A DNA stretch of 64,000 nt from assembly GCF_009711085.1 (NCBI RefSeq), contig NZ_WMKA01000008.1, positions 25,544 through 89,543 on the forward strand. The letters are read 5' to 3'. The notes under the pieces were generated by a model. The model was given only the letters and a program-made list of their open reading frames with translations. It was not told where the DNA came from and did not search any database. Shown in pieces: positions 30,457-61,963 of this stretch (position 1 is its first letter; each line of letters begins with the position of its first letter). Made by a program: the position numbers and the translations under genes. Source of the DNA: Cellulosimicrobium composti (GTDB lineage: Bacteria > Actinomycetota > Actinomycetes > Actinomycetales > Cellulomonadaceae).

Positions 30457-31905
30457 CTACTGAGGCAAGCCGCCGACTTGGCCTGGTGGGAGCTTTCCAT
30501 CCCGGACGTCGACCCAGAACTGGCCGACGGTGTCGGGGTCCAGCTGCACGGTCGACCCCACGTTGCCGCCCGGGCGGTAGTCGGGGTTCGAGATCGGCGG
30601 TGTGCCCGTGATGCCGTCGGGACCGTTCGCCTTGCGGAACGCGAGCGCGAGCTTGCCCAGGTCGATGATGCCGGTGCTCTGGTCGACCGTGAGGGATCCG
30701 AGACCCGAGTCCAGCAGCGAGACCTGGTCGCCCGGGCGGAACAGGATGCTCGGGTTCGCCGCCTTCGAGCTGATGGCGCCGATCACCTGGCGCTGGCGCT
30801 CGGCGCGTCCGATGTCACCCTTCGGGTCGGAGTAGCGCATTCGCGAGAACGCGAGCGCGGTGTGGCCGTCGGCGACGTGGCACCCGGCCGTCCAGACGAG
30901 CTCGCTCCTCGGGTCGTTCACGTCGTAGTCGAGGCACAGCTCGACGCCGCCGACGGCGTCGACGATGCCCTCGACCCCGCCGAACCCGACCTCGACGTAG
31001 TGGTCGACCGTGAGGCCGGTGAGCTGCTCGACGGTCTGCACGAGCAGCGGCGGGCCGCCCCACGAGTAGGCCGAGTTGAGCTTGCTCGCGCCGTTGCCGG
31101 GGATCTCCGCGTACGTGTCGCGGGGGAGGCTGATGAGCGCGACCGGGCCGCTCGGCGGGGCGTGCAGGATCATGATCGTGTCCGTGCGCGCGCCCTCGGT
31201 GCCGTCCTCGCTGATGCCCTCGCCGCGCGCGTCCGAGCCGGCGAGGAGGTAGGTGTTCCCGGGTGTGCCGGGCGCGCCGGAGAGGGCCTCGACGTGCTGG
31301 ATCTTGCCGTTCGCCCAGATGAGCAGGCCCACCGGCCAGGCGAGGAGCGCGACGATCACGACGCAGGCGACGAGCCCGACCACGCGGCCCTTGCGGACGC
31401 GGAAGCCGCCCCCGCCGGTCCGCGGTGCGGCCGGGCCCGACGGCGGTCGACCGCCCCGGTCTCCCGGCCCGCCCGTGCGTGGGCGCGGGGACGCGCTCGG
31501 GCGGCTCCGCGGCGACGTCGGCACGGCCTGGGCGCCCGCGCGAGGCGCGGACGAGACGCGCGGGGGAGTCGACGCTGCTTGTCCGGGCTGGCGCGCCGGA
31601 GCGACGGACGGGGGGAGGCCCGACGCCGCCGAGCTCGTTCGCGCGCGCGGGCTGCGGGCGGGAGGCGCGGGCGGGGGCGTGCCCTTGCGCGCCGGGGTCA
31701 CGGGGATCTCGCGCGACGACTGGCGCTTGATGCGCGGCTCGAGCCGCACGGCGTCGTCGGGGGCGGAGGGACGGGGTCGCGCCTGGGCGCGTCCGCTGTT
31801 GCCCACCGCGATCGCGTCGTCGACCGACGACGGCCGCGGGGCGCGGCCGCCCTGCGGCGTGAAGCTGGGAGGGAGCGACCGGGGGTCGCGCGACGGGTCG
31901 GTCAT
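30457..31905 (-). CDS. LCP (LytR-CpsA-Psr) family protein 1
   Basis: A 482-residue membrane-anchored enzyme of the family that transfers polyprenyl-linked glycans onto peptidoglycan. About 170 cytoplasmic residues rich in Pro, Arg and Ser precede one helix (VVGLVACVVIVALLAWPVGL). The LCP domain shows LLAGSDARGEG, TDTIMILHAP, the arginine motif SLPRDTYAEIPG, KLNSAYSWGG and the late RERQ-type segment GRAERQRQVIGAI. It starts 4 bases after the stop of the other LCP gene on the same strand. Both lie at the head of the polysaccharide locus, which supports a role in its attachment. Confidence 0.93.
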   Translation of the reverse strand: MTDPSRDPRSLPPSFTPQGGRAPRPSSVDDAIAVGNSGRAQARPRPSAPDDAVRLEPRIKRQSSREIPVTPARKGTPPPAPPARSPRARTSSAASGLPPSVAPARQPGQAASTPPRVSSAPRAGAQAVPTSPRSRPSASPRPRTGGPGDRGGRPPSGPAAPRTGGGGFRVRKGRVVGLVACVVIVALLAWPVGLLIWANGKIQHVEALSGAPGTPGNTYLLAGSDARGEGISEDGTEGARTDTIMILHAPPSGPVALISLPRDTYAEIPGNGASKLNSAYSWGGPPLLVQTVEQLTGLTVDHYVEVGFGGVEGIVDAVGGVELCLDYDVNDPRSELVWTAGCHVADGHTALAFSRMRYSDPKGDIGRAERQRQVIGAISSKAANPSILFRPGDQVSLLDSGLGSLTVDQSTGIIDLGKLALAFRKANGPDGITGTPPISNPDYRPGGNVGSTVQLDPDTVGQFWVDVRDGKLPPGQVGGLPQ

Positions 31906-31909
31906 GGCG

Positions 31910-33202
31910 TCACCCGCACTGCGCGGTCTCGTCGGCGGCGGAGAACGCCTCCTTGCCGGCTTCCTTCGTCTGCACCGGGGCGGGCTCCGAGGACGCGTCG
32001 TCCGGCGGCACGTCTGCGCTCTCCCCGGCCTGTGACGGCGGCTCCGTGGCCTCGACCGCGCCGTCGGGTCCGCCAGTCTCGTCGGCGGCGGGTGCGGGCG
32101 CGACGATCGGCTCGTCGGCGCGCACCTTCGCCCACAGCTCGTCGGCCTCTGACGTCCAGACGACCTTCGCGTCGGGGTCCTGCGGGTCCGGCGCGTTCGG
32201 AACGGTCATGAAGGTGATGTTGCCACTGGTCGCGCCCTTGAGGCTGAAGGCGAGCCCGGCGAGGCTCGGGATCGACGAGAGGTTGTCGCTCATGGTGAGC
32301 GACTTGGTGCCCGCGTCGACGAACCCGTAGATCTGACCGAGGTCCGAGAGCACGTTCTTCGAGAGAACCTGGTTCACCGTCGCGGCGAGGAGCTGTTGCT
32401 GACGGCTGATGCGGCTGAGGTCCGACCCGTCGCCCACGCCGTAGCGGGCCCGCGCGAACCCGAGCGCCTGGGCGCCGTCCAGCGTCTGCCAGCCCGCGGC
32501 GAGCTGGAGGTCCGCCTTGGGCGAGTCGATCGCCTCCGGGATGCAGATGGGGACGCCCCCGATCGCCGTGACCATGTTCTGGAAACCGGCGAAGTCGACC
32601 ACGACGAAGCCGTCGACGAACACGTCGGTGAGGCTCTCGACCGTCTGCACCGTGCACGCGGCGGCGGAGTCGACGTCGCCGCCGACGGTCGCGCCGTTCG
32701 CGAACGCCGCGTTGAAGCGCGTGTTCGCGGGTGCGGTCGTCTTGCCGCTCGTCGTGTTGCAGGCCGGGACGTCGACGCGCGAGTCCCGCGGGATCGAGAC
32801 CATCTCGACGCGCGAGCGGTCCGCGGAGACGTGCACGAGGATCGTCGTGTCCGATCGCATGCCCTCGACGCCCTCGACCTCGTGGCCGTTCTCGCCCCCG
32901 CGTTCGTCCGAGCCCATCACAAGGATGTTGAGCGGCTTGCCGGCGTTGGGGTCGTCGGGGTCGGGCGTCGACGGCGCAGGACGGTCCTCGACCAGGTCGA
33001 GAGCGCTCGAACCCGAGATGTTCCCCACGATGTTCGACACCGCGGCCGCGCCGCCCACCGCGCCGAACGCGAGCACCGCGGTCGCGACGAGGCCGGCCGT
33101 CCTGGCTGCGCCGTGCGTACGGAGAGCCCGCGCGTGCGACGGCCCGCGCGACTGCCGGTCGGCAGCCGCGGTGCGAGCCTGGGCACGGGAACGGGACGTC
33201 AC
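31910..33202 (-). CDS. LCP (LytR-CpsA-Psr) family protein 2
   Basis: A 430-residue relative of the downstream gene with a short cytoplasmic start. One helix (TAGLVATAVLAFGAVGGAAA) precedes the LCP domain: ILVMGSDERGGENG, SDTTILVHVSADR, the arginine motif SIPRDSRVDVP and SRISRQQQLLAATV. An acidic, Pro/Ala-rich C-terminal tail follows. The GTG at 33202 lies 8 bases after TATGCT, so it is leaderless; a TTG six bases upstream is less likely. It is probably the first gene of a two-gene operon. The tandem pair suggests two acceptors or two polymers. Confidence 0.92.
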   Translation of the reverse strand: MTSRSRAQARTAAADRQSRGPSHARALRTHGAARTAGLVATAVLAFGAVGGAAAVSNIVGNISGSSALDLVEDRPAPSTPDPDDPNAGKPLNILVMGSDERGGENGHEVEGVEGMRSDTTILVHVSADRSRVEMVSIPRDSRVDVPACNTTSGKTTAPANTRFNAAFANGATVGGDVDSAAACTVQTVESLTDVFVDGFVVVDFAGFQNMVTAIGGVPICIPEAIDSPKADLQLAAGWQTLDGAQALGFARARYGVGDGSDLSRISRQQQLLAATVNQVLSKNVLSDLGQIYGFVDAGTKSLTMSDNLSSIPSLAGLAFSLKGATSGNITFMTVPNAPDPQDPDAKVVWTSEADELWAKVRADEPIVAPAPAADETGGPDGAVEATEPPSQAGESADVPPDDASSEPAPVQTKEAGKEAFSAADETAQCG

Positions 33203-33210
33203 GGGCAACG

Positions 33211-34578: not shown

Positions 34579-35175
34579 ATGAGTGTGCGCATCGCACCCA
34601 GCGCCGATGTCGCCGAGAATGCCGCGATCGGCGACGGCAGCCAGATCTGGCACCTCGCCCAGGTGCGTGAGGGGGTGTCGATGGGGGAGTCGTGCGTCGT
34701 AGGACGGGGCGCCTACATCGGCACCGGCGTGCAGATGGGCCGGAACTGCAAGGTGCAGAACTACGCCCTCGTGTACGAGCCGGCGACGCTCGCGGACGGC
34801 GTCTTCATCGGGCCCGCCGTGGTGCTGACCAACGACACGTACCCGCGCGCGGTCAACCCCGACGGGTCGCTGAAGAGCGCGGACGACTGGCACGCCGTCG
34901 GCGTGACGATCGGCGAGGGGGCCGCGATCGGAGCTCGCGCCGTGTGCGTCGCCCCCGTGACGATCGGCGCCTGGGCGACCGTGGCCGCCGGCGCCGTCGT
35001 CACCAAGGACGTCCCGGACCACGCCATCGTCGTCGGGGTTCCCGCGCGGCGCGTCGGCTGGGTCGGGCGAGCGGGCCGACCGCTGGAGCAGGACGGCGAG
35101 CACTGGGTCTGCCCGGTGACAGGGGTTCGCTACGAAGAGCACGACGAGACCATCAGAGAGGTTGCGGCCGAATGA
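34579..35175 (+). CDS. WbpD-like UDP-3-amino-sugar N-acetyltransferase
   Basis: A 198-residue left-handed beta-helix acetyltransferase with hexapeptide repeats (for example IGDGSQIWHLAQVREG, GRNCKVQNYALVYE and GAAIGARAVCVAPVTIGAWA). The segment GVFIGPAVVLTNDTYPRAVN is characteristic of the WbpD/WlbB group, which acetylates the 3-amino group of UDP-GlcNAc3NA. It is followed by an aminotransferase and an oxidoreductase, the two enzymes that make that amino sugar, with a 4-base overlap (ATGA). Another 3-amino-sugar substrate cannot be excluded. Confidence 0.88.
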   Translation: MSVRIAPSADVAENAAIGDGSQIWHLAQVREGVSMGESCVVGRGAYIGTGVQMGRNCKVQNYALVYEPATLADGVFIGPAVVLTNDTYPRAVNPDGSLKSADDWHAVGVTIGEGAAIGARAVCVAPVTIGAWATVAAGAVVTKDVPDHAIVVGVPARRVGWVGRAGRPLEQDGEHWVCPVTGVRYEEHDETIREVAAE

Positions 35176-36272
35176 GCCAGACACTGATCCCCGCGGCGAA
35201 GCCGATCGTCGGGGACGACGAGCGAGCGGCCGTGGACCGCGTGCTGCGCAGCGGGATGATCGCCCAGGGCCCGGAGGTCGCCGCCTTCGAGCAGGAGTTC
35301 GCCGACGTGCTCGTCGGCGGGCGCACGTGCGTCGCCGTCAACTCCGGGACCTCCGGGCTCCACCTGGGCCTCCTCGCCGCGGGCATCGGCCCCGGCGACG
35401 AGGTCATCGTCCCGTCGTTCACGTTCGCGGCGACCGCGAACTCGGTCGCGCTGACCGGTGCGACGCCGGTGTTCGCGGACATCGAGCCGGACCACTTCTG
35501 CCTGTCGCCCGACGCGGTGCGCGCCGCGATCACCGAGCGCACCAAGGCGATCATGCCGGTGCACCTCTACGGGCACCCCGCCGACATGACGGCTCTCGGC
35601 GCGGTCGCGGACGAGCACGGGCTGCTGCTGTTCGAGGACGCGGCCCAGGCGCACGGCGCGACGCTGGCAGGACGCCCCGTCGGTTCGTTCGGCTCGTTCG
35701 CGATGTTCAGCCTCTATCCCACGAAGAACATGACCTCGGGGGAGGGCGGCATGGTGTCGTGCGCGACGGACGAGATCGCGCGCAACGTCCGCCTCCTGCG
35801 CAACCAGGGCATGGAGCGCCAGTACGCGAACGAGCTCGTCGGGTTCAACGCACGGATGACCGACGTCCACGCGGCGATCGGGCGGGTCCAGCTCACGAAG
35901 GTCCAGGGCTGGACGGCTGATCGCCAGCGCAACGCGGCGTTCCTCTCGGAGAACCTCGAAGGCGTCGTCACGCCGCCGGTCGCTGACGGCGCGGTGCACG
36001 TCTACCACCAGTACACGATCCGGGTCGCCGACGACCGCGACCGGGTGGTGACGGCGCTCCGCGAGGAGCACGGCGTCGGATCGGGCGTCTACTACCCGAT
36101 CCCGAACCACCGCCTCGAGAGCCTCAAGCACTTCGCACCCGACCTCGACCTCCCCGAGACGGAGATCGCCGCTCAGCAGGTGATCTCGCTCCCGGTGCAC
36201 CCCTCGCTCACGCAGGAGGACCTCGACCGCATCGTCACCGCGGTCAACACCGTCGTGAAGGCTGGTGCGTGA
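35172..36272 (+). CDS. DegT/DnrJ/EryC1/StrS aminotransferase (WbpE-like)
   Basis: A 366-residue PLP enzyme that aminates a keto sugar nucleotide. It shows AVNSGTSGLHLGLLAAGIGP, DEVIVPSFTFAATANSV, LFEDAAQAHGA and the PLP-binding lysine in SLYPTKNMTSGEGG. The C-terminal half contains HVYHQYTIRV and GVYYPIPNHRL, common in WbpE-type enzymes. The start ATG overlaps the acetyltransferase stop. Its stop shares a base with the next start. The predicted step is amination at C3 of a UDP-3-keto-GlcNAc(A). Confidence 0.93.
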   Translation: MSQTLIPAAKPIVGDDERAAVDRVLRSGMIAQGPEVAAFEQEFADVLVGGRTCVAVNSGTSGLHLGLLAAGIGPGDEVIVPSFTFAATANSVALTGATPVFADIEPDHFCLSPDAVRAAITERTKAIMPVHLYGHPADMTALGAVADEHGLLLFEDAAQAHGATLAGRPVGSFGSFAMFSLYPTKNMTSGEGGMVSCATDEIARNVRLLRNQGMERQYANELVGFNARMTDVHAAIGRVQLTKVQGWTADRQRNAAFLSENLEGVVTPPVADGAVHVYHQYTIRVADDRDRVVTALREEHGVGSGVYYPIPNHRLESLKHFAPDLDLPETEIAAQQVISLPVHPSLTQEDLDRIVTAVNTVVKAGA

Positions 36273-37258
36273 TGGCAGACCTGCGTGCGGGCCTCATCGG
36301 GCTCGGAGCCATGGGCCGGCACCACGCCCGGGTGCTCCGCGAGATCGACGGTGTCGACCTCGTGGCCGTCGCCGACCCGGGCGGTGACCCCTACGGCGTG
36401 GCCGGCGACCTCGACGTCCTCCCGGACGTCCAGGGACTGATCGACAGCGGCATCCAGATGGCGGTCGTCGCCGTCCCGACGGTCTTCCACGAGGAGGTGG
36501 CGCTCGCTCTCGCCGCCACCGGGGTCCACACCCTCGTCGAGAAGCCTATCGCGGCGACGAGCGAGGCCGGACGCAAGGTGGTCGACGCGTTCGCGGCCGC
36601 CGGCCTCGTCGGTGCCGTTGGGCACATCGAGCGGTTCAACCCGGCGCTCCAGGAGCTGCGGCGCCGGATGGAGGCCGGTGAGCTGGGCGAGGTCTACCAG
36701 ATCGCTACGCGACGCCAGGGACCCTTCCCGTCACGCATCGCCGACGTGGGCGTGGTGAAGGACCTCGGCACGCACGACATCGACCTCACCGCGTGGGTCG
36801 CCCAGAGCCACTACCGCTCGGTCGCGGCGCAAACCACGCACCGCAGCGGTCGTCCGCACGAGGACATGGTGACGGCCATCGGGCGTCTCGAGAACGGCGT
36901 CGTGACCAACCATGTCGTCAACTGGCTCTCGCCGATGAAGGAGCGCGTCACCATCGTCACGGGTGAGCGCGGTGCGTTCGTCGCCGACACGGGGACCGCC
37001 GACCTGACGTTCTACGCCAACGGCGTCATCCCCACGGAGTGGGAGGCCGTCTCCGCTTTCCGGGGCGTCTCGGAGGGAGACGTCACCCGCTACGCCTTCG
37101 CCAAGCGGGAGCCGCTGCGCGTGGAGCACGAGGCGTTCCGGGACGCGGTGCTCGGCCTCCGCCAGGATGTCGTGACCATGGAGGAGGGCCTTCGGACCCT
37201 CGAGGTCGCCGAGGCCGTGCTCGAGTCGTCGCGGACGGGATCGACGATCTCCCTCTGA
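36272..37258 (+). CDS. Gfo/Idh/MocA oxidoreductase, probable UDP-GlcNAc(A) 3-dehydrogenase
   Basis: A 328-residue NAD(P)-dependent sugar dehydrogenase. The Rossmann fold begins AGLIGLGAMGRHHARVLREI, the catalytic-lysine motif is LVEKPIAAT, and GHIERFNPALQEL recurs in UDP-GlcNAc 3-dehydrogenases. DLGTHDIDL carries the conserved His/Asp pair. It would oxidise C3 to give the keto sugar used by the aminotransferase just before it. The ATG at 36272 shares its first base with the previous stop; an overlapping GTG at 36269 is the alternative. The step is inferred from neighbours because the family is broad. Confidence 0.85.
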   Translation: MADLRAGLIGLGAMGRHHARVLREIDGVDLVAVADPGGDPYGVAGDLDVLPDVQGLIDSGIQMAVVAVPTVFHEEVALALAATGVHTLVEKPIAATSEAGRKVVDAFAAAGLVGAVGHIERFNPALQELRRRMEAGELGEVYQIATRRQGPFPSRIADVGVVKDLGTHDIDLTAWVAQSHYRSVAAQTTHRSGRPHEDMVTAIGRLENGVVTNHVVNWLSPMKERVTIVTGERGAFVADTGTADLTFYANGVIPTEWEAVSAFRGVSEGDVTRYAFAKREPLRVEHEAFRDAVLGLRQDVVTMEEGLRTLEVAEAVLESSRTGSTISL

Positions 37259-37350: not shown

Positions 37351-40116
37351 ATGCGGGCTCGACGCCGGCTCGGAAAGTCACTTCGAATCGTCGTGGCGGG
37401 CGCCGCCGCGCTCGCGCTACCTCTCACGGTCGCGATCGCCGCGCCCGCCACGTCGGAGCCCGTCGGCAAGACCCTCCAGCCCGACGGCGGCAGCGAGGGG
37501 ATCGAGTCCGAGGTCGCGGAGCTCACGGTGGACCAGGGCCCCGAGACGCTCGGCACGCAGGCCGCTCCGGACGACCCCTTCGAGCAGGCTGGTGTCCCCG
37601 AGAGCGCCGGGACCGTCGTCGCGACCTCGGGACAGACGTCCGGCCTCGCCGTGGTGGGCGTCACGTGGGCGCACGGCACCGCGCCGGAGGGGGCCAGCGT
37701 CGTCATGCGGTCGCGCACGGCGGACGCTTGGTCGGAGTGGGCACTCCTCGAGCAGGAGGACGTCGTCTCGGAGGACCCGGGTGCCGACGACCTCGGGTCG
37801 GCGGCGACGGAGGTTCGTGACGGGACCGAGCCGGCCTTCGTCGGCGCGGTCGACGAGGTCGAGGTCGCGGTCCGCGGCGCGGGCGAGGCGCTGCCGCAGG
37901 ACATCCGGCTCGTCGTGATCGAGCCGGGCGAGGCCGACGCCGAACCCACGGTCGCGAACGCCAGCTTCGTCGGGGACCCGGACGCCGTGCCGGCGCCCGC
38001 GATCGTCGACGAGTCCGCGTCCGGGGTCTCGACGGGGACGCCGGACGCCTTCACGACGGCCGCGGTGGCGCGTCCGGCGATCAACACCCGGGCGCAGTGG
38101 GGCGCCGACGAGTCGATCATGACGTGGACCCCCCAGGTCGGGCGCGTCAACGGTGCCGTCGTCCATCACACCGCTGGTTCCAACAACTACACCGCAGCCC
38201 AGGTCCCCTCGATCATCCGGGGCATCTACACCTACCATGCGCAGTCCCGCGGCTGGGGCGACATCGGCTACAACTTCCTCGTCGACAAGTTCGGCCGCAT
38301 CTGGGAAGGGCGCGCAGGCGGGGTCGAGCGGGCCATCGTGGGCGCGCACGCGGCGGGGGTCAACTCGCACACGTTCGGGCTGTCGCTCATGGGCAACTAC
38401 GACCAGGCCTCGGTCCCCGCGGCCGCCATGGACGCGATGTCGCGTCTCCTCGCGTGGAAGCTCTCGCTCCACGGCGTCCGGGCGAACGGGACGGCGAGCA
38501 TCGACGGCCGGACGCTGCCCGCAGTCGTCGGGCATCGAGACGTCGGCCAGACCGCGTGTCCCGGGGCCAACCTGTACGCGCGGCTCGGTGAGCTGCGCTC
38601 GCGCGCCGCCAACCTCCAGCCGAGCCCGCTTCGCGGACCGCTTGTACGCGACCTCACGGGCGATGGCTTCCCTGAGCTCCTCGCTGAGAATGGAGGCGTC
38701 GTCTCGCTGGTCACAGCTGGCCGCACGTGGTCGGCGTCCACGAGGTACGGGCCTGGCTGGAATGACGGGAGGGTCTTCTCACCCGGCGATTTCGACGGCA
38801 ACGGCCGTGGCGACCTCATGCTGATCGACCGCACGGGGCGACTGTACTTCTATGGGTCGAGCGGCTCCGGCTGGCAGCCCCGACGATTCATCGGATCCGG
38901 CTGGAGCGTGATGGACGCGGTCGTCGGGGGTCACGACTGGGACGGGGACGGCCGTCCCGACCTGCTGGCGCGCCGTAGCAGCGACGGGTCCCTATGGCTC
39001 TACTCCAACAGTGGCGCGGGTGGCTTCCGAGGTTCACGGCAGATCGGCTGGGCGTGGCAGCAGATGTCCGCGATCACCTTGATGGGCGACCTGAGTGATG
39101 GCCGACCGTCGCTCGTGGCCCAGCAACCTGACGGTCGGCTCGTGACGTACGTCGGTGACGGGCGGGGGAATTTCGCGGTGAGCCGGCCTCAAGGAACCGG
39201 GTGGAACACGATGACGTCGGTCCTGGGGCCCGGTGACGCGACCGGAGACGGCGCGTTCGACCTCGTCGCTCGCGACGGCGCCGGGCGGCTCCTGCTGTAC
39301 CCCGGCAACGGTGACGGATCCTTCCGTAGCCCCGTCCAGATCGGCCAGGACTGGCAACAGTTTTCCACGGTTTTGGTGACGCGGAGCGGGGAGACCGTCG
39401 AGTTCTACCCGGTGTCCCGGAGCGGGGTGCTTCACCGCTACCCATACGTCCGCAGCGGGCAGTTGACGAGCTCGTTCTCGACATCGGTGCGCGCGGCACG
39501 CGGTTCGGACGTCATTGTGCCGGGCGACTGGGACGGTGACGGTCGGCCGGACCTCGTCGTGCGCGACCGAGCGGGGAGCCTTTTTCTGCACCGGGGTACA
39601 GGAACGGGGACCTTCAGCAGCACCGGCAACCAGATCGGTCGCGGATGGGAGGGCATGCGTGACATCGTGGGTGCACCGAGCTTCGGTGCTGACGGTGAGC
39701 CCGGCATCCTCGCGCTCGAGGCCTCCACTGGCCGGATCTGGCTGTACCCCGGAACGGCGCACGGTGCCTTTAAGTCGCGAGTGCTTATCGGGAGCGGCGC
39801 CACCCGTGCAGACATGATCGTGAGCGTCGGGACGTGGACCGGAGGGAGCCACGACCTCGTGACCCGGGAAGGTGGCGACCTGATCCTGCGCAAGGGGAAC
39901 GGGGCTGGTCAGCTCGGGCCCGCCCAGCAGATCGGGTGGGGCTGGGGCGGTGCATCCGCAATTGTCGGAGTGGGCGACGCGACGTCCGACGGCGTGCCTG
40001 ACCTCGTCTTCGTCGACGCCGGCGGATCGGTCCGTCTCTACCCGGGCAACGGCAAGGGTGGATTCCTTGCGGCCCGGCCGTTCGGCCAGGTGTCGTCGGG
40101 AGCAGTGGTGTTCTGA
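37351..40116 (+). CDS. Secreted N-acetylmuramoyl-L-alanine amidase with FG-GAP repeat tail
   Basis: A 921-residue exported protein. A signal peptide (basic start, then VVAGAAALALPLTVAIA) and an acidic linker to about residue 240 precede the catalytic domain. The amidase_2/PGRP domain (about 240-410) has zinc-site segments VVHHTAGSNNYTAAQ and VVGHRDVGQTACPGANLY plus GDIGYNFLVDKFGRIWEGR. From about 430 to the end there are some nine FG-GAP-like repeats. Ca-binding motifs such as GDWDGDGRPDL and a recurring I-G-x-G-W-x-x-M signature suggest a beta-propeller. It should cut the bond between muramic acid and the stem peptide outside the cell. It converges with a SpoIID gene carrying the same tail. 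GC content falls at the start of the repeat region. Confidence 0.92.
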   Translation: MRARRRLGKSLRIVVAGAAALALPLTVAIAAPATSEPVGKTLQPDGGSEGIESEVAELTVDQGPETLGTQAAPDDPFEQAGVPESAGTVVATSGQTSGLAVVGVTWAHGTAPEGASVVMRSRTADAWSEWALLEQEDVVSEDPGADDLGSAATEVRDGTEPAFVGAVDEVEVAVRGAGEALPQDIRLVVIEPGEADAEPTVANASFVGDPDAVPAPAIVDESASGVSTGTPDAFTTAAVARPAINTRAQWGADESIMTWTPQVGRVNGAVVHHTAGSNNYTAAQVPSIIRGIYTYHAQSRGWGDIGYNFLVDKFGRIWEGRAGGVERAIVGAHAAGVNSHTFGLSLMGNYDQASVPAAAMDAMSRLLAWKLSLHGVRANGTASIDGRTLPAVVGHRDVGQTACPGANLYARLGELRSRAANLQPSPLRGPLVRDLTGDGFPELLAENGGVVSLVTAGRTWSASTRYGPGWNDGRVFSPGDFDGNGRGDLMLIDRTGRLYFYGSSGSGWQPRRFIGSGWSVMDAVVGGHDWDGDGRPDLLARRSSDGSLWLYSNSGAGGFRGSRQIGWAWQQMSAITLMGDLSDGRPSLVAQQPDGRLVTYVGDGRGNFAVSRPQGTGWNTMTSVLGPGDATGDGAFDLVARDGAGRLLLYPGNGDGSFRSPVQIGQDWQQFSTVLVTRSGETVEFYPVSRSGVLHRYPYVRSGQLTSSFSTSVRAARGSDVIVPGDWDGDGRPDLVVRDRAGSLFLHRGTGTGTFSSTGNQIGRGWEGMRDIVGAPSFGADGEPGILALEASTGRIWLYPGTAHGAFKSRVLIGSGATRADMIVSVGTWTGGSHDLVTREGGDLILRKGNGAGQLGPAQQIGWGWGGASAIVGVGDATSDGVPDLVFVDAGGSVRLYPGNGKGGFLAARPFGQVSSGAVVF

Positions 40117-40171
40117 GTCGGGAGCCTGCTGTCCCAGGACCGCGGGACTCGGCTGCTTTCTTTCCCAGTAG

Positions 40172-42184
40172 TCAGACGAGGCGCTCCACCGAAGTCCAGC
40201 CCGGACCAATGGCAGTGCGGCGCGGGAAACTTGTCCCTGACCACGCGTAGAGGTAGAGCGTTCCACCGGGATCGGCTGCGACCAGATCCGGTCGTCCATC
40301 GCCGTCGAGGTCCTCCGTCGTGGAGACGAGGCGCATCGGCGACCACCCCTGGCCGATCGGCGTCGCCGCGAAGCCCCCTTTGCCGTTGCCCCGGTAGAGG
40401 AACAAGGTCCCCGCCGCGTCCGTCGCGAGGAAGTCGGAATGACCGTCGTCGTTCCAGTCGCCTCCGCCGACCACGTTCGTCATGGAGCCCCAACCTGGGC
40501 CGACACGGACCTTCGAGCCGAAGCCTCCGCGACCGTTGCCCGCGTAGAGCCACATCGTGCCCATGTTGTCGACGGCCAAGATGTCGGAGTCCCCGTCGCC
40601 GTCGACATCTCCGGGCGCGACGACGGTCGTCATCGAACCCCAGCCCGGGCCTACGGCCACACGCGGTCCGAACCGACCTGCGCCGTTGATCGGGTACCGC
40701 CACATCCGGCCTGCGGCGTCGACCGCGAGGACGTCGACGCGCCCATTCCCGGTAAGGTCGTTGGCACGTACGGCTATGCGCATCGCCTGCCAGCCCTCGC
40801 CAACCTGCGTGACCCTACCGAAGGTTCCGGCACCCGTACCCTCGTAGTGGTCGAGCGCGCCGTCGTCCTTCTGGACGAGAAGATCCGGTCGACCGTCCGT
40901 GCTGAAGTCGGTGTCCAGGCGTGTCGAGCCCGTGATCTTCCACCAGTCGCTCCGAAGCCCCAGCGCGGACCGGATGCCGGCACCCGTCGTGGTCTGCTGA
41001 CCCTGCGTACCGGTCACCGTCACGCTCTCGACGCGGCCGCCCCACTCCCCATTGGCGGTTCGGGTACGAACCTCGATGCTCCGAATCTGGCCGATCCCTG
41101 GGAACGCGGCGGCGAACTGGGAGACCGAAACGGAGACGCTCCACGAATGGACCGGATTGCCGACTGCGTCCCAGGGATCTGCCCTCGCCACCAGGTACGG
41201 TTGGCTCCCCGTCTTCGTCCAGCCGCCGTTGGACGAGCTGAACTGCGTGAACGCCGGTGCGCCCCCGTATGTCCGAATCTGCCCGGCCGTCTCGCGGATC
41301 GCCGTGTCGGTGCGCGCGGCCTCGTGGACTGTGACGACCGAGCCACTCCCGTTTAGGGTCCGGTAGCCGCGATAGACCTGGCACTGCGTCGTGTCGCACG
41401 TGTCCCACGCACGCGAACCTGCGGCCCGTCGGTCGAACGAGGCGTAGGTGCGTGCAGCGACAGCCTGTGCGCGCAGGGCGTCGTAGGGCCAGCTGGACGG
41501 TGACTCGGCGGGGACGACAGAACGGAGATAGCTCTCCATCGAGACCTGGTTCACCGAGCGCAAGCCCGGGGAGGAACCGTCGGCGACAGCCCGGATCAAG
41601 CCTCGGTACTCTCGTCGTGTCCCGTCAGGGACGACGAGCTGGACTGTATCTCCGGGGGTCGCGAAATCGAGGTGCGTGGTCCGCAGGGTGGACCAGCGAA
41701 CCCAGCTGCCCGCGGAGAGGCCGTCGACATGGAGGTCGGCTCCCGAGCGGACGACGCGCCACTGCGTGACCGTACGTCCTGCGAACTGGGGGGTTCGCAC
41801 CGTCCCGGCCGCGTCCCTCACGGTCATCCCCGGGACGGCGACGACTCGCACGTCGTTGTCCGTGTCAGCGGAGACGAGTGCCCGGATCGGGGAGTCGCGC
41901 TGGCCGGTGTGCGCGGTGCCCGGGTAGTAGAAGTCGAGGATCGCCCTATACCCCACACCCTGCGTCGCCGCCCCGCGCGCACCGTACTGCGAGAGCCCGA
42001 TCCCGTGCCCGTAACCGTGGCCGGCGATCGTTACGGTCCCGGACGGCGGTAGGTTCACGCGCTCGGCCGTCACGATCGACGCCTGGGCCGGGGCGCCACC
42101 CAGCAGGGCGAGCACGAGCCCGAGCCCTGCGACCACCGCCGCCCCATGTCGCTGCTGCGACCCTCGCAGCCATGTCCACGTCAT
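40172..42184 (-). CDS. Secreted SpoIID/LytB-domain protein with FG-GAP repeat tail
   Basis: A 670-residue exported protein. A signal peptide (VVAGLGLVLALLGGAPAQA) is followed by the GHGYGHGIGLSQYGARGAA motif near residue 55 and the SpoIID core (SMESYLRSVVPAESPSSW, then ALRAQAVAARTYA) near 225. Glu in VPAES matches the catalytic glutamate of SpoIID, a lytic transglycosylase acting on peptide-free glycan strands. From about 420 five FG-GAP repeats follow (GDVDGDGDSDILAVD; VGPGWGSMTTVV; VGPGWGSMTNVV), as in the convergent amidase. The ATG at 42184 has GAGGTGG upstream. Only 55 bases separate the two stop codons. Confidence 0.9.
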   Translation of the reverse strand: MTWTWLRGSQQRHGAAVVAGLGLVLALLGGAPAQASIVTAERVNLPPSGTVTIAGHGYGHGIGLSQYGARGAATQGVGYRAILDFYYPGTAHTGQRDSPIRALVSADTDNDVRVVAVPGMTVRDAAGTVRTPQFAGRTVTQWRVVRSGADLHVDGLSAGSWVRWSTLRTTHLDFATPGDTVQLVVPDGTRREYRGLIRAVADGSSPGLRSVNQVSMESYLRSVVPAESPSSWPYDALRAQAVAARTYASFDRRAAGSRAWDTCDTTQCQVYRGYRTLNGSGSVVTVHEAARTDTAIRETAGQIRTYGGAPAFTQFSSSNGGWTKTGSQPYLVARADPWDAVGNPVHSWSVSVSVSQFAAAFPGIGQIRSIEVRTRTANGEWGGRVESVTVTGTQGQQTTTGAGIRSALGLRSDWWKITGSTRLDTDFSTDGRPDLLVQKDDGALDHYEGTGAGTFGRVTQVGEGWQAMRIAVRANDLTGNGRVDVLAVDAAGRMWRYPINGAGRFGPRVAVGPGWGSMTTVVAPGDVDGDGDSDILAVDNMGTMWLYAGNGRGGFGSKVRVGPGWGSMTNVVGGGDWNDDGHSDFLATDAAGTLFLYRGNGKGGFAATPIGQGWSPMRLVSTTEDLDGDGRPDLVAADPGGTLYLYAWSGTSFPRRTAIGPGWTSVERLV

Positions 42185-52385: not shown

Positions 52386-53467
52386 CACCTCGGGAGGTCG
52401 ACGTCGTGGTGGCCGTCCACGACCCTCGTCGTCCGGTGGCCCGCGCGGTCGCCTCGGTGCTCGCGCAGGACGGCGTGCACGCACGGGTCACGGTCGTGTG
52501 CCACAACACCGATCCCGCCGTGATCGTCGAGGCGCTCGGGGCTGTGCATGCGGCGGGCGGCGACGACCGGGTACGGACGCTCGAGTTGCGCGACGGCGTG
52601 CCAAGTCCTGCCGGGCCGTTCAATCTCGGGCTCGACCGCGCCGAGGCGCCCTTCGTGAGCATCATGGGATCCGACGACTGGCTCGAGCGCGGCGCGCTTG
52701 CGTCCTGGCTGGAGGTCGCGCGGGGTACGGGCGCGGAGGTGGTGATCCCGCGCCTCGCGCACGCGAACGGAGCGCGGGTCCCGACGCCGGCGGCGCGACC
52801 CGGTCGTGTCCGGGACCTCGACCTCGTCGAGGACCGTCTCTCCTACCGGAGCGCTCCGCTCGGGCTTGTGCGACGTGAGACGGTCGACCGGCTCGGGCTC
52901 CGCATGCGCGAAGGTCTGCGCGTGGGCGAGGACGTCGCCTTCGCGACCGCGCTGTGGGCCGGCGCGAAGGTCGCGTTCGACCGGCGGGGCCCGGCCTACG
53001 TCATCGGTGACGACGCTGTCGAGCGTGTGACGTACACCCCGCGTCCGATCGCCGAGGAGCTGGCCTTCGTCCTCGACCTCGTCGCCCTGCCGTGGTTCAC
53101 CGCCCTTCCACCGGCCGCCCGTCGGGCGATCGCCGTCAAGGTCGTGCGCATCCACGTCTTCGGAGCGGTTTTCCATCGGCAGAAGCGCGAGCTGTGGACG
53201 AGCGAGGAACGTCGTGACCTGAGCGCGGTCGTCCACGCGCTCGACGCCGCCGCGCCGCACTACGATCGGGTTCTCTCGCTCGCCGACCGAAAGCTCCTCG
53301 ACCTCACGCGCTCGCGCACCGGGACGGCCGATGCGCTGATCGCGGCGTCGGTCAGGAGGCGGCACCACGGACGCCCGGCGACCGTCCTCACGCGCGACCT
53401 GTCGCGTCTCCTCGCGCGCGAGGCCCCAGTGCGCTTCATGGCTGCGTCGTTTCTGACGACGCGTTGA
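52382..53467 (+). CDS. Family 2 glycosyltransferase B (paralogue of the 45444 gene)
   Basis: A 361-residue GT2 enzyme. It begins VDVVVAVHDPRRPVARAVAS, with SIMGSDDWLERGALASW, SYRSAPLGLVRRETVDRLGL and GEDVAFATALWAGA at positions matching the 45444 protein. The shared VKVVRIHVFGAVF tail segment supports common descent. It is coupled to the GT4 gene before it by a GTGA overlap. A separate promoter for the next gene lies just after its stop. Confidence 0.83.
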   Translation: MTPREVDVVVAVHDPRRPVARAVASVLAQDGVHARVTVVCHNTDPAVIVEALGAVHAAGGDDRVRTLELRDGVPSPAGPFNLGLDRAEAPFVSIMGSDDWLERGALASWLEVARGTGAEVVIPRLAHANGARVPTPAARPGRVRDLDLVEDRLSYRSAPLGLVRRETVDRLGLRMREGLRVGEDVAFATALWAGAKVAFDRRGPAYVIGDDAVERVTYTPRPIAEELAFVLDLVALPWFTALPPAARRAIAVKVVRIHVFGAVFHRQKRELWTSEERRDLSAVVHALDAAAPHYDRVLSLADRKLLDLTRSRTGTADALIAASVRRRHHGRPATVLTRDLSRLLAREAPVRFMAASFLTTR

Positions 53468-53474
53468 GCACGCC

Positions 53475-53480
53475 TATTGT
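53475..53480 (+). promoter_or_regulatory. Candidate -10 (TATTGT) of the dehydrogenase gene
   Basis: It would give a leader of about 37 bases before the ATG at 53524, which has GAGGA upstream. Confidence 0.4.
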
Positions 53481-53523
53481 TCTCTCGGACCACCATCCTG
53501 CCGACGCACCTCTGAGGACCACC

Positions 53524-54822
53524 ATGCGCATCGCCGTCATCGCCCTGGGCAAGATCGGGCTTCCCCTTGCTGTCCAGTTCGCCGACCAAGGGCACGACGT
53601 CGTGGGCGTCGACGTCAACCCTGCCGTCGTCGACAAGGTCAACTCCGGGGTGGAGCCGTTCCCCGGCGAGGCGCATCTTCAGGACAAGCTCACCGAGCTC
53701 GTGCCGGCGGGGCGGCTGCGGGCGACGACCGACTACGGCGACGCGGTCCCCGGCGCCGACGCCGTCGTGCTGGTGGTCCCGTTGTTCGTCGACGAGGAGA
53801 CGGCGCAACCGGACTTCGGGTGGATGGACGCCGCGACGCGGTCGCTCGCCGAGCACCTGACCCCGGGGACCCTCGTGTCCTACGAGACGACTCTTCCGGT
53901 CGGGACCACGCGCAAGCGGTGGAAGCCGCTCCTCGAGGAGGTCTCCGGCCTCCGCGAGGGTGAGGACTTCCACCTCGTCTTCTCCCCGGAACGCGTGCTG
54001 ACGGGACGGGTGTTCGCCGACCTGCGCCGTTACCCGAAGCTCGTCGGCGGTCTCTCCGAGGCCGGCGCCCAGCGGGCCCGCGAGTTCTACGAGGCGGTGC
54101 TCACGTTCGACGAGCGGGCCGACCTCGCCCGCCCGAACGGCGTGTGGGACCTGGGCTCGGCCGAGGCGGCGGAGCTCGCCAAGCTCGCGGAGACCACCTA
54201 CCGGGACGTCAACATCGGCCTCGCCAACCAGTTCGCCCTGTTCGCCGACGAGCACGCGATCGACGTCTACTCCGTCATCGAGGCGTGCAACTCGCAGCCC
54301 TACAGCCACATCCACCGCCCGGGGATCGCGGTGGGGGGTCACTGCATCCCCGTCTACCCGCGGCTCTACCTCTCGGTGGACCCGAAGGCCTCCATCGTCC
54401 GCGAGGCCCGATCCGTGAACGCGGCGATGCCCGAGCGTGTGGTCGAGCGCGCGGCCGAGGTCCTCGGCGACCTCTCCGGGCTGCGCGCCGTGGTCCTCGG
54501 CGCCGCGTACCGCGGTGGGGTCAAGGAGACGGCGTTCTCGGGCGTCTTCGCGACCGTCCAGGCACTCGAGAAGCGCGGTGCGACCGTCGTCGTCCACGAC
54601 CCGCTGTACTCCGACGAGGAGCTGCGTTCGCTGGGCCTCGAGCCGTACGCGTACGGCGAGGCCGCCGACCTTGCGGTGGTCCAGACGGACCACGCCGAGT
54701 ACGCGGAACTCGCTCCGGAGCGGATCCCGGGCGTCCGCCTCGTCGTCGACGGCCGCCGCGTCACCGACGCCGCCCGGTGGTCGGGTACGCCGCGCATCGT
54801 GCTCGGTGGCGGGACGGCGTGA
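53524..54822 (+). CDS. Nucleotide-sugar 6-dehydrogenase (WbpA/WecC type)
   Basis: A 432-residue NAD+-dependent enzyme that oxidises C6 of a UDP-sugar to a carboxylate. The Rossmann fold begins MRIAVIALGKIGLPLAVQFA. Central residues are in TLPVGTTRKRW, FSPERVLTGR and AELAKLAETTYRDVNIGLAN, and the catalytic cysteine is in GGHCIPVYPRLYLS. The last motif is closer to UDP-ManNAc/UDP-GlcNAc dehydrogenases than to UDP-glucose dehydrogenase. Either UDP-ManNAcA (with the epimerase) or UDP-GlcNAcA (start of the WbpA-B-E-D route) fits. The ATG at 53524 has a ribosome site; a TTG at 53464 would add 20 unlikely residues. Confidence 0.92.
   Translation: MRIAVIALGKIGLPLAVQFADQGHDVVGVDVNPAVVDKVNSGVEPFPGEAHLQDKLTELVPAGRLRATTDYGDAVPGADAVVLVVPLFVDEETAQPDFGWMDAATRSLAEHLTPGTLVSYETTLPVGTTRKRWKPLLEEVSGLREGEDFHLVFSPERVLTGRVFADLRRYPKLVGGLSEAGAQRAREFYEAVLTFDERADLARPNGVWDLGSAEAAELAKLAETTYRDVNIGLANQFALFADEHAIDVYSVIEACNSQPYSHIHRPGIAVGGHCIPVYPRLYLSVDPKASIVREARSVNAAMPERVVERAAEVLGDLSGLRAVVLGAAYRGGVKETAFSGVFATVQALEKRGATVVVHDPLYSDEELRSLGLEPYAYGEAADLAVVQTDHAEYAELAPERIPGVRLVVDGRRVTDAARWSGTPRIVLGGGTA

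Positions 54823-58781: not shown

Positions 58782-61959
<3,178 letters not shown>

Positions 61960-61963
<4 letters not shown>

Follow-up and report, generated by a model that had tools for sequence, protein, structure and literature searches.

Why should two cell-wall proteins with different catalytic heads end in the same kind of propeller? The question is raised by a pair of genes in Cellulosimicrobium composti (Cellulomonadaceae), within a stretch of 64,000 nucleotides (nt) (contig NZ_WMKA01000008.1, positions 25,544 to 89,543; hereafter the window, whose own numbering is used for all its coordinates). A protein with an Amidase_2/PGRP (peptidoglycan recognition protein) head (37351..40116, forward strand, 921 amino acids (aa)) and a SpoIID/LytB-domain protein (40172..42184, reverse strand, 670 aa) are encoded convergently, with 55 bp separating the two stop codons (40117..40171). 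Both have, by eye, a signal-peptide-like N-terminus, and no terminator-like site was found in the 55-bp stop-to-stop gap. We propose, with a probability of roughly 60%, that the two form a two-enzyme wall-cutting module whose members a shared lectin-like anchor brings to one wall ligand. Among the observations behind this proposal is the agreement between the tails of the two proteins, here and across the family.

Both heads are, by profile scores and by inspection of the aligned catalytic residues, members of the respective families. The Amidase_2 domain covers aa 265-405 (38143..38565, forward strand; 1.1e-19 in Pfam) and is accompanied by eight FG-GAP_3 stretches. It scores 71.6 bits with PF01510, the cut-off being 26, and the amidase-head profile retrieves solved PGRPs at E 4.9e-34. 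Residues H272, H273, H395 and C403, the presumed zinc ligands by analogy with PGRPs, are conserved: the H/H/C positions are invariant in 11 of 11 aligned heads and the matching columns in 17 of 17 sequences of a second alignment. In an AlphaFold model of the amidase (11 sequences, predicted local distance difference test (pLDDT) 72.0) the head resembles PGRP 4z8i (Z 17.9). The SpoIID domain was found at aa 207-306 (3.8e-26 in Pfam), within a core of about aa 207-420 (40925..41566, reverse strand), together with five FG-GAP_3 stretches. It reaches 92 bits with PF08486 (cut-off 23) and 193.9 bits with TIGR02669 (cut-off 83.3), and the head profile matches solved SpoIIDs at 7.7e-40; the score with TIGR02870, the equivalog of sporulation SpoIID, is 132.9 bits, below the cut-off of 234.75. 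A regular expression for the catalytic Glu performed poorly and was replaced by alignments, in which E227 falls at the catalytic Glu position of solved SpoIIDs (E101 of Clostridioides difficile SpoIID). This residue is invariant in 16 of 16 aligned SpoIID heads, the matching column is invariant in 14 of 14 sequences of a second alignment, and the motif around it resembles GVVxxEMP/S. Searches of the window's genome returned one Amidase_2, one SpoIID and 12 FG-GAP_3 matches, all in these two open reading frames (ORFs), and out of 28 candidates scored with the amidase-head profile only this amidase was retained; such searches can miss members, as they did the amidases of three genomes (G065, G129, G088) that are present in the fetched regions.

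The amidase tail (38656..40113, forward strand) is about twice as long as that of SpoIID (aa 432-670; 40175..40891, reverse strand), and on alignment the two are homologous propellers: FG-GAP_3 is found in both, and they align at 34% over 247 aa (E 1e-33; 235 bits in phmmer). An unrelated FG-GAP protein (L130), our single control, did not match the SpoIID tail at E 10, which leads us to reject generic FG-GAP similarity as the explanation of the tail match to the extent that one control allows. Two other propeller-bearing wall proteins, both in region L093, score 175 and 159 bits, versus 235 for the pair. An earlier note on this DNA had described the pair in much these terms. The ORFs and Pfam confirm its coordinates, orientation, 55-base spacing and heads, and its claim that both tails are made of one kind of FG-GAP repeat with the G-x-G-W signature holds as well. 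It had proposed as a test whether the tails are closer to each other than to unrelated FG-GAP proteins, and they are, with L130 as the one control. Its count of about nine and five repeats is near, the FG-GAP_3 stretches numbering eight and five, and a loose G-x-G-W scan marking nine and six places.

What such a tail may bind is suggested by its relatives of known structure. The solved sequence nearest to the SpoIID tail is 8w20, named 'Secreted esterase', from the Umb1 umbrella toxin particle (2.6e-15), and the tail profile additionally matches AAL2, a lectin for N-acetylglucosamine (GlcNAc) (4.4e-12). In the AlphaFold model of the SpoIID protein (16 sequences, pLDDT 78.8, predicted template modelling score (pTM) 0.52) the tail forms one small propeller. 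By structural alignment, residues 432-670 superpose on 5c2m (Z 18.5, root-mean-square deviation (rmsd) 3.2, 204 aligned), a small symmetric propeller, presumably five-bladed and built on tachylectin-2, and residues ~421-670 superpose on the lectin UmbA4 with its teichuronic-acid wall polymer (Z 16.6, rmsd 4.3) and on PVL with GlcNAc (Z 12.5, rmsd 4.7); Foldseek alignments of the whole model gave poor rmsd and were set aside. The SpoIID tail is consistent with a 5c2m-like propeller because the five GW repeats and the length fit. In the amidase model, propeller matches extend over about residues 436-702 and similar strands continue to 921, a tail that we read as two propellers. The sugar pocket of AAL2 uses Gly-Gly-Trp (PMC4483166), and its Trp aligns with the G-x-G-W element of our tails; in the predicted structure the tail is of UmbA/PVL type, an FG-GAP propeller fold with the pocket Trp. 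The propeller pockets of UmbA4 are described as binding a polymer of 2,3-diacetamido-2,3-dideoxymannuronic acid (ManNAc3NAcA) and N-acetylgalactosamine that is linked to wall teichoic acid (PMC13274773). With lectins among its nearest structures, the tail is probably a lectin-like anchor for which sugar binding is predicted.

To follow the pair beyond the window we used 200 Cellulomonadaceae genomes, 116 with a SpoIID match and 153 with an Amidase_2 match. One region of up to 20 kb around one SpoIID was fetched for 115 genomes, the window serving for its own genome. The C-terminal tails were clustered by phmmer into families named by Pfam (DUF4214, FG-GAP_3, CWB2, ChW, LGFP) and unnamed ones (u2, u3, u5, u8); a fusion (L116) was kept out of the clustering and the trees, the SpoIID tree was built without the tailless SpoIIDs, and alignments A1 and A2 leave out L080, which is near-identical to L079. 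An amidase lies within the same region in 75 of the 116 cases (40/53 for tailed SpoIIDs, 34/62 for tailless ones, and one fusion), which bears out the expectation that orthologues of the pair are often found together; ORF pairs facing stop to stop have a median gap of about 1 kb. Among the 40 tailed regions with an amidase, the tail family is equal on both genes in 37 and unequal in three. For the other 13 tailed genomes, a profile search recovered the amidase in 11, every one with a matching tail (eight on the same contig 10-22 kb away, three on other contigs of broken assemblies). The 53 genomes with a tailed SpoIID are hence made up of 48 matched, three unmatched and two in which no amidase was found (G135 and G081) and which were left out of the count of 51. 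As far as sequence clustering can tell, then, across the family the amidase takes the tail family of its SpoIID, a near-rule at 48/51. Matched pairs span six tail families. When amidase types are shuffled, the mean number of matches is 13.5 overall and 25.5 within genus, and none of 20,000 shuffles reaches 48 in either scheme. All 14 genus-by-tail cells are fully matched except FG-GAP in the window's genus (7/10). Five genomes carry an additional, second amidase with a CWB2 tail. Next to tailless SpoIIDs (for instance L147, L148 and L153) the nearby amidase mostly has a tail of the unnamed u2 or u5 family that SpoIID lacks; the tailless SpoIIDs were also searched for the u2 tail at other positions, and no copy was found.

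A wider scan of named genomes retained 79 loci, many of their regions being cut by contig ends. An amidase lies within about 10 kb in 17 of them, four as fusions and 13 as separate pairs, four of which overlap family genomes already counted. Tails match in 12 of the 13 pairs, directly in ten and in two (L243, L249) only in that both fit one tail model; the SpoIID of L206 is tailless, and the SpoIID head of L243 is divided over two ORFs. The fusions, five ORFs when that of the family is included, combine an amidase head with a SpoIID head permuted as in the window (see below). They come from Cellulomonadaceae (L116:6798-10252, with CWB2 between the heads and cut by the contig end), a metagenome-assembled genome (MAG) of Aeromicrobium (L196:6661-9600), Terrabacter (L197:8390-11902), Terracoccus (L213:8672-11908) and a Geodermatophilaceae MAG (L231:8762-11812). 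The Terrabacter and Terracoccus fusions, which come from close relatives, both end in an FG-GAP propeller. By eye, the amidase of the Geodermatophilaceae fusion seems to lack the third zinc-ligand Cys.

The surroundings of the pair suggest a candidate ligand. The region is, by the families of its genes, a wall-glycopolymer locus. Upstream of the amidase lie, in order and all on the forward strand, an acetyltransferase-like gene (WbpD-like, 34579..35175, named by eye rather than by a Pfam scan), a DegT aminotransferase gene (WbpE-like, 35172..36272) and a GFO/IDH oxidoreductase gene (WbpB-like, 36269..37258), the last two by family assignment. A LytR-CpsA-Psr (LCP) protein is encoded at 30457..31905 on the reverse strand, and the segment from 42.4 to 62.8 kb holds genes for glycosyltransferases, an ATP-binding cassette (ABC) exporter, a UDP-sugar dehydrogenase (53464..54822, forward strand), a UDP-galactopyranose mutase, a GlfT2-like protein and an ABC-2 permease. 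Enzymes of the aminotransferase, oxidoreductase, acetyltransferase and dehydrogenase kinds are assigned to UDP-ManNAc3NAcA synthesis in Streptomyces griseus (PMC13274773). The genes at 34579-37258 and 53464-54822 perhaps encode a diacetamido-uronic acid pathway, their enzymes being assigned by family only. The UDP-galactopyranose mutase and GlfT2-like galactofuranosyltransferase genes (58782-61963) suggest that the locus may also make galactofuran, and a second LCP-like ORF was noticed by eye at 31910-33208, where Pfam gave no match in a different reading frame.

The WbpB-like gene allowed the link between tail and polymer to be followed across genomes. Its orthologue is present in 10 of 13 matched FG-GAP genomes (window included) and in 5 of 5 CWB2 genomes, versus 1/19 with DUF4214, 1/8 with u3 and 0/2 with ChW (2/29 together). 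The difference between these two sets has a Fisher p of 1e-7, a value that ignores shared descent and omits u8 and the three unmatched genomes; within genera, p is 0.0005 in g20 and 0.07 in g8. The orthologue is also present in the single u8 genome with an amidase and in 2 of 14 genomes that are tailless or SpoIID-free, and the three unmatched genomes (G088, G129 and G146) are without it. The trio of sugar genes stands within 20 kb in 5 of 5 CWB2 regions; among the FG-GAP regions, a few of which are short, the count is 6 of 17. This distribution speaks for a connection of anchor and polymer that is not a one-to-one code: the notion of one sugar pathway per tail family was rejected, because the WbpB-like gene accompanies both FG-GAP and CWB2.

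Taken as a mechanism, the proposed module would work as follows. Both enzymes would be secreted, and the pockets of their propellers would hold on to the glycopolymer that this locus produces. The amidase would strip stem peptides from glycan strands, and the SpoIID head would then cut the bared strand as a lytic transglycosylase, or stimulate the amidase in the manner of LytB. Over evolution the anchor family would change, both enzymes keeping, or being re-set to, the same one. The SpoIID head itself departs from the known form. When its family is compared with 4rwr, 5i1t and 5txu, the core (profile 214-425) corresponds to their middle part, and a G-Y-G-H-G segment (profile 52-103; about aa 50-103 of the window protein, 41876..42037, reverse strand) corresponds to their C-terminus. 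The segment is thus C-terminal in the solved SpoIIDs and N-terminal here, the reverse of the canonical order of core and then G-x-G-H-G, and on these alignments the head is a circular variant of the SpoIID family rather than the canonical form. A regular expression run on 124 SpoIIDs found the segment first in 68 and last in none, leaving 56 unclassed, and a literature search turned up no paper on a circularly permuted SpoIID. The permutation would have shifted the segment from the C- to the N-terminus and left the C-terminus free to carry the tail.

Several observations weigh against a module of two enzymes held by one anchor. Other wall proteins can bear the same tail, and SpoIID is tailless in 62 of the 116 regions. 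The three unmatched genomes pair an FG-GAP SpoIID with LGFP or CWB2 amidases. The WbpB-like gene is tied to two tail families and is absent from 3 of the 13 matched FG-GAP genomes. Five changes, the minimum possible, suffice to place the tail families on the SpoIID head tree. The tail of the own-genome partner is the closest one in 0 of 12 cases for FG-GAP (0.7 expected) and about as often as chance predicts for u3 (1/4) and CWB2 (1/5). Finally, LytB of Bacillus subtilis, a protein of the SpoIID family, is listed as not hydrolysing peptidoglycan (PMC10653849).

This last point bears on the role of the SpoIID head. It might be a modifier of the amidase and not an enzyme, as reported for LytB, which reference titles in the same source (PMC10653849) call a modifier similar to the major autolysin and a stimulator of amidases. 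That the head is permuted and scores below the cut-off of the sporulation SpoIID model fits such a role, whereas the invariance of the catalytic Glu position in the aligned heads and the likeness of its motif to GVVxxEMP/S speak for an enzyme; we consider the modifier role possible and somewhat doubtful.

Matching tails could also reflect inheritance and nothing else, each tail family having arisen once on a linked cassette that was inherited or transferred as a unit, without any requirement that the tails resemble each other. Each tail family forms a clade on the SpoIID head tree, and since the changes required there are at the minimum of five, most matched pairs share descent. The amidase head tree requires ten tail-family changes. 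A conflict of u3 heads between the two head trees was considered and dropped, as the SpoIID side does not reject agreement (p-AU, approximately unbiased test, 0.22), and the FG-GAP tails are without recent copying; the expectation that the FG-GAP tails of one genome are closest to each other was likewise ruled out by the 0/12. Against inheritance as the whole explanation, in several genera the pair members are identical at the DNA level over little more than the tails. The identity is 100% in L109 (630 nt) and L120 (624 nt), 99.7% in L115 (621 nt) and 95.4% in L124 (609 nt), and in Blastococcus (L218) the two tails are 99.5% identical over 1285 nt. The tracts start near the start of the tail and end at the stop codon in three cases, 21 nt beyond it in L109 and 22 nt before it in L124. 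Near-identical tracts confined to little more than the tail are, on the DNA alignments, the mark of recent copying between the two genes, which goes beyond descent. The own-genome partner tail is the closest one in 8 of 14 DUF4214 cases (0.7 expected) and in 4 of 4 ChW cases (2.0 expected). In one genome (G034) two amidases of differing head ancestry bear the ChW tail of SpoIID, at 71% and 86% identity, and a single clade of ChW amidases is rejected (p-AU 3e-7, the group having been named after the tree was seen). This swap and the five ORFs that fuse the two heads likewise go further than shared descent. We regard descent as the sole cause of the matching as unlikely.

A stronger version of the shared-anchor proposal can be put forward on these data, if tentatively. 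An actinobacterial amidase-SpoIID module would have to share its anchor; a change of wall polymer would bring replacement of the anchor on one gene and gene conversion to the other, the anchor would act as a tag of the polymer, and the cell's own hydrolases would use the same kind of lectin as its rivals do. The odds of this version are lowered by the uneven record of recent copying, which the DUF4214 and LGFP tails show, the ChW tails suggest and the FG-GAP tails lack.

The other carriers of the tail raise a further alternative, namely a genome-wide anchor for many secreted wall proteins, in which the amidase and SpoIID do not act together. Region L093 has an FG-GAP propeller on two further proteins, one of the CAP and one of the PG_binding_1 kind, and in L089 (10822-13737) and L094 (10309-12816) an Rv2525c-like glycoside hydrolase adjoining SpoIID bears SpoIID's u8 tail, so that the tail may be a house anchor of several wall proteins. 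Third carriers are also seen for ChW (L111) and DUF4214 (L124). In the window's genome, by contrast, FG-GAP_3 matches are confined to the two ORFs, and within its genus, where 12 of 17 genomes have such matches, they are confined to the pair ORFs or to SpoIID alone in 10 of the 12. Separate action also sits ill with the adjacency of the two genes and with their fusion in five ORFs, and as a full account we judge the alternative improbable; an anchor common to several proteins and joint action of these two are compatible, and both can hold. That the propellers instead bind competitors' walls as parts of a weapon, as the umbrella-toxin origin of 8w20, the solved structure closest to the tail in sequence, and the binding of other species' wall polymers by that lectin family (PMC13274773) might suggest, is very unlikely, given that both genes are part of a locus for the cell's own glycopolymer, with an LCP gene nearby, and that unrelated wall-anchor families (CWB2, ChW, LGFP) are employed in the same way.

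In the window a SpoIID-family protein of a non-sporulating bacterium is linked with a partner amidase through neighbouring genes, through fusions in relatives and through a matched anchor, which makes the two-step model directly testable. With anchors copied between the two genes, the sequence of an autolysin could show which wall polymer it recognises; autolysin targeting would also be connected with the variable glycans of the wall recognised by umbrella toxins. A literature search covering open-licence papers and few subscription journals found no paper on an amidase-SpoIID pair in actinobacteria. The earlier note had called the two-step module one not known to it as described, which needs correction, as LytB and LytC (CwbA/CwlB) of B. 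subtilis form a neighbouring pair in a vegetative cell, within the teichoic-acid region.

In B. subtilis, whose pair is the closest known system, as in the window, a SpoIID-family gene adjoins an amidase gene, and an LCP gene (TagU/LytR) and wall-polymer genes lie in the same region; in the window the two genes are 55 bp apart and wall-polymer genes with an LCP protein surround them. LytB and LytC share wall-binding repeats. The genes lytC, lytB, lytA and tagU are listed between the tua genes and mnaA/gtaB (PMC8753576). PMC10653849 places LytC under Amidase_3, whereas the present amidase belongs to Amidase_2. Here, moreover, the tail is C-terminal, SpoIID is permuted and the anchor is an FG-GAP propeller, replaced by other families in relatives (CWB2 in some Cellulomonas). 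The sporulation pair offers a second likeness: an amidase and a SpoIID with the conserved Glu, in which SpoIID reportedly needs denuded glycan. SpoIID is reported to act there on glycan bared by SpoIIP, with E101 as the main catalytic residue in C. difficile (PMC6934232). According to that source, SpoIIP and SpoIIM are restricted to Firmicutes, SpoIID-family proteins occur across all phyla, and the SpoIID/LytB architectures vary across phyla, the present one not being named in the passage that describes them. The window pair differs in its amidase family, in the permutation of SpoIID and in its lectin tail, which the matched solved SpoIIDs lack. With UmbA of Streptomyces umbrella toxins and the lectins PVL and AAL2 it shares a homologous propeller with a conserved pocket Trp; here the propeller sits on wall enzymes and not on toxin particles, and its ligand is presumed to be the cell's own polymer. 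In C. difficile, several CWB2 cell-wall proteins share one polymer-binding anchor. There the anchor is of one family, whereas here a matched pair has exchangeable anchor families. We think that, by analogy, the pair works like LytB/LytC and SpoIIP/SpoIID, and differs from both in amidase family, SpoIID topology and anchor.

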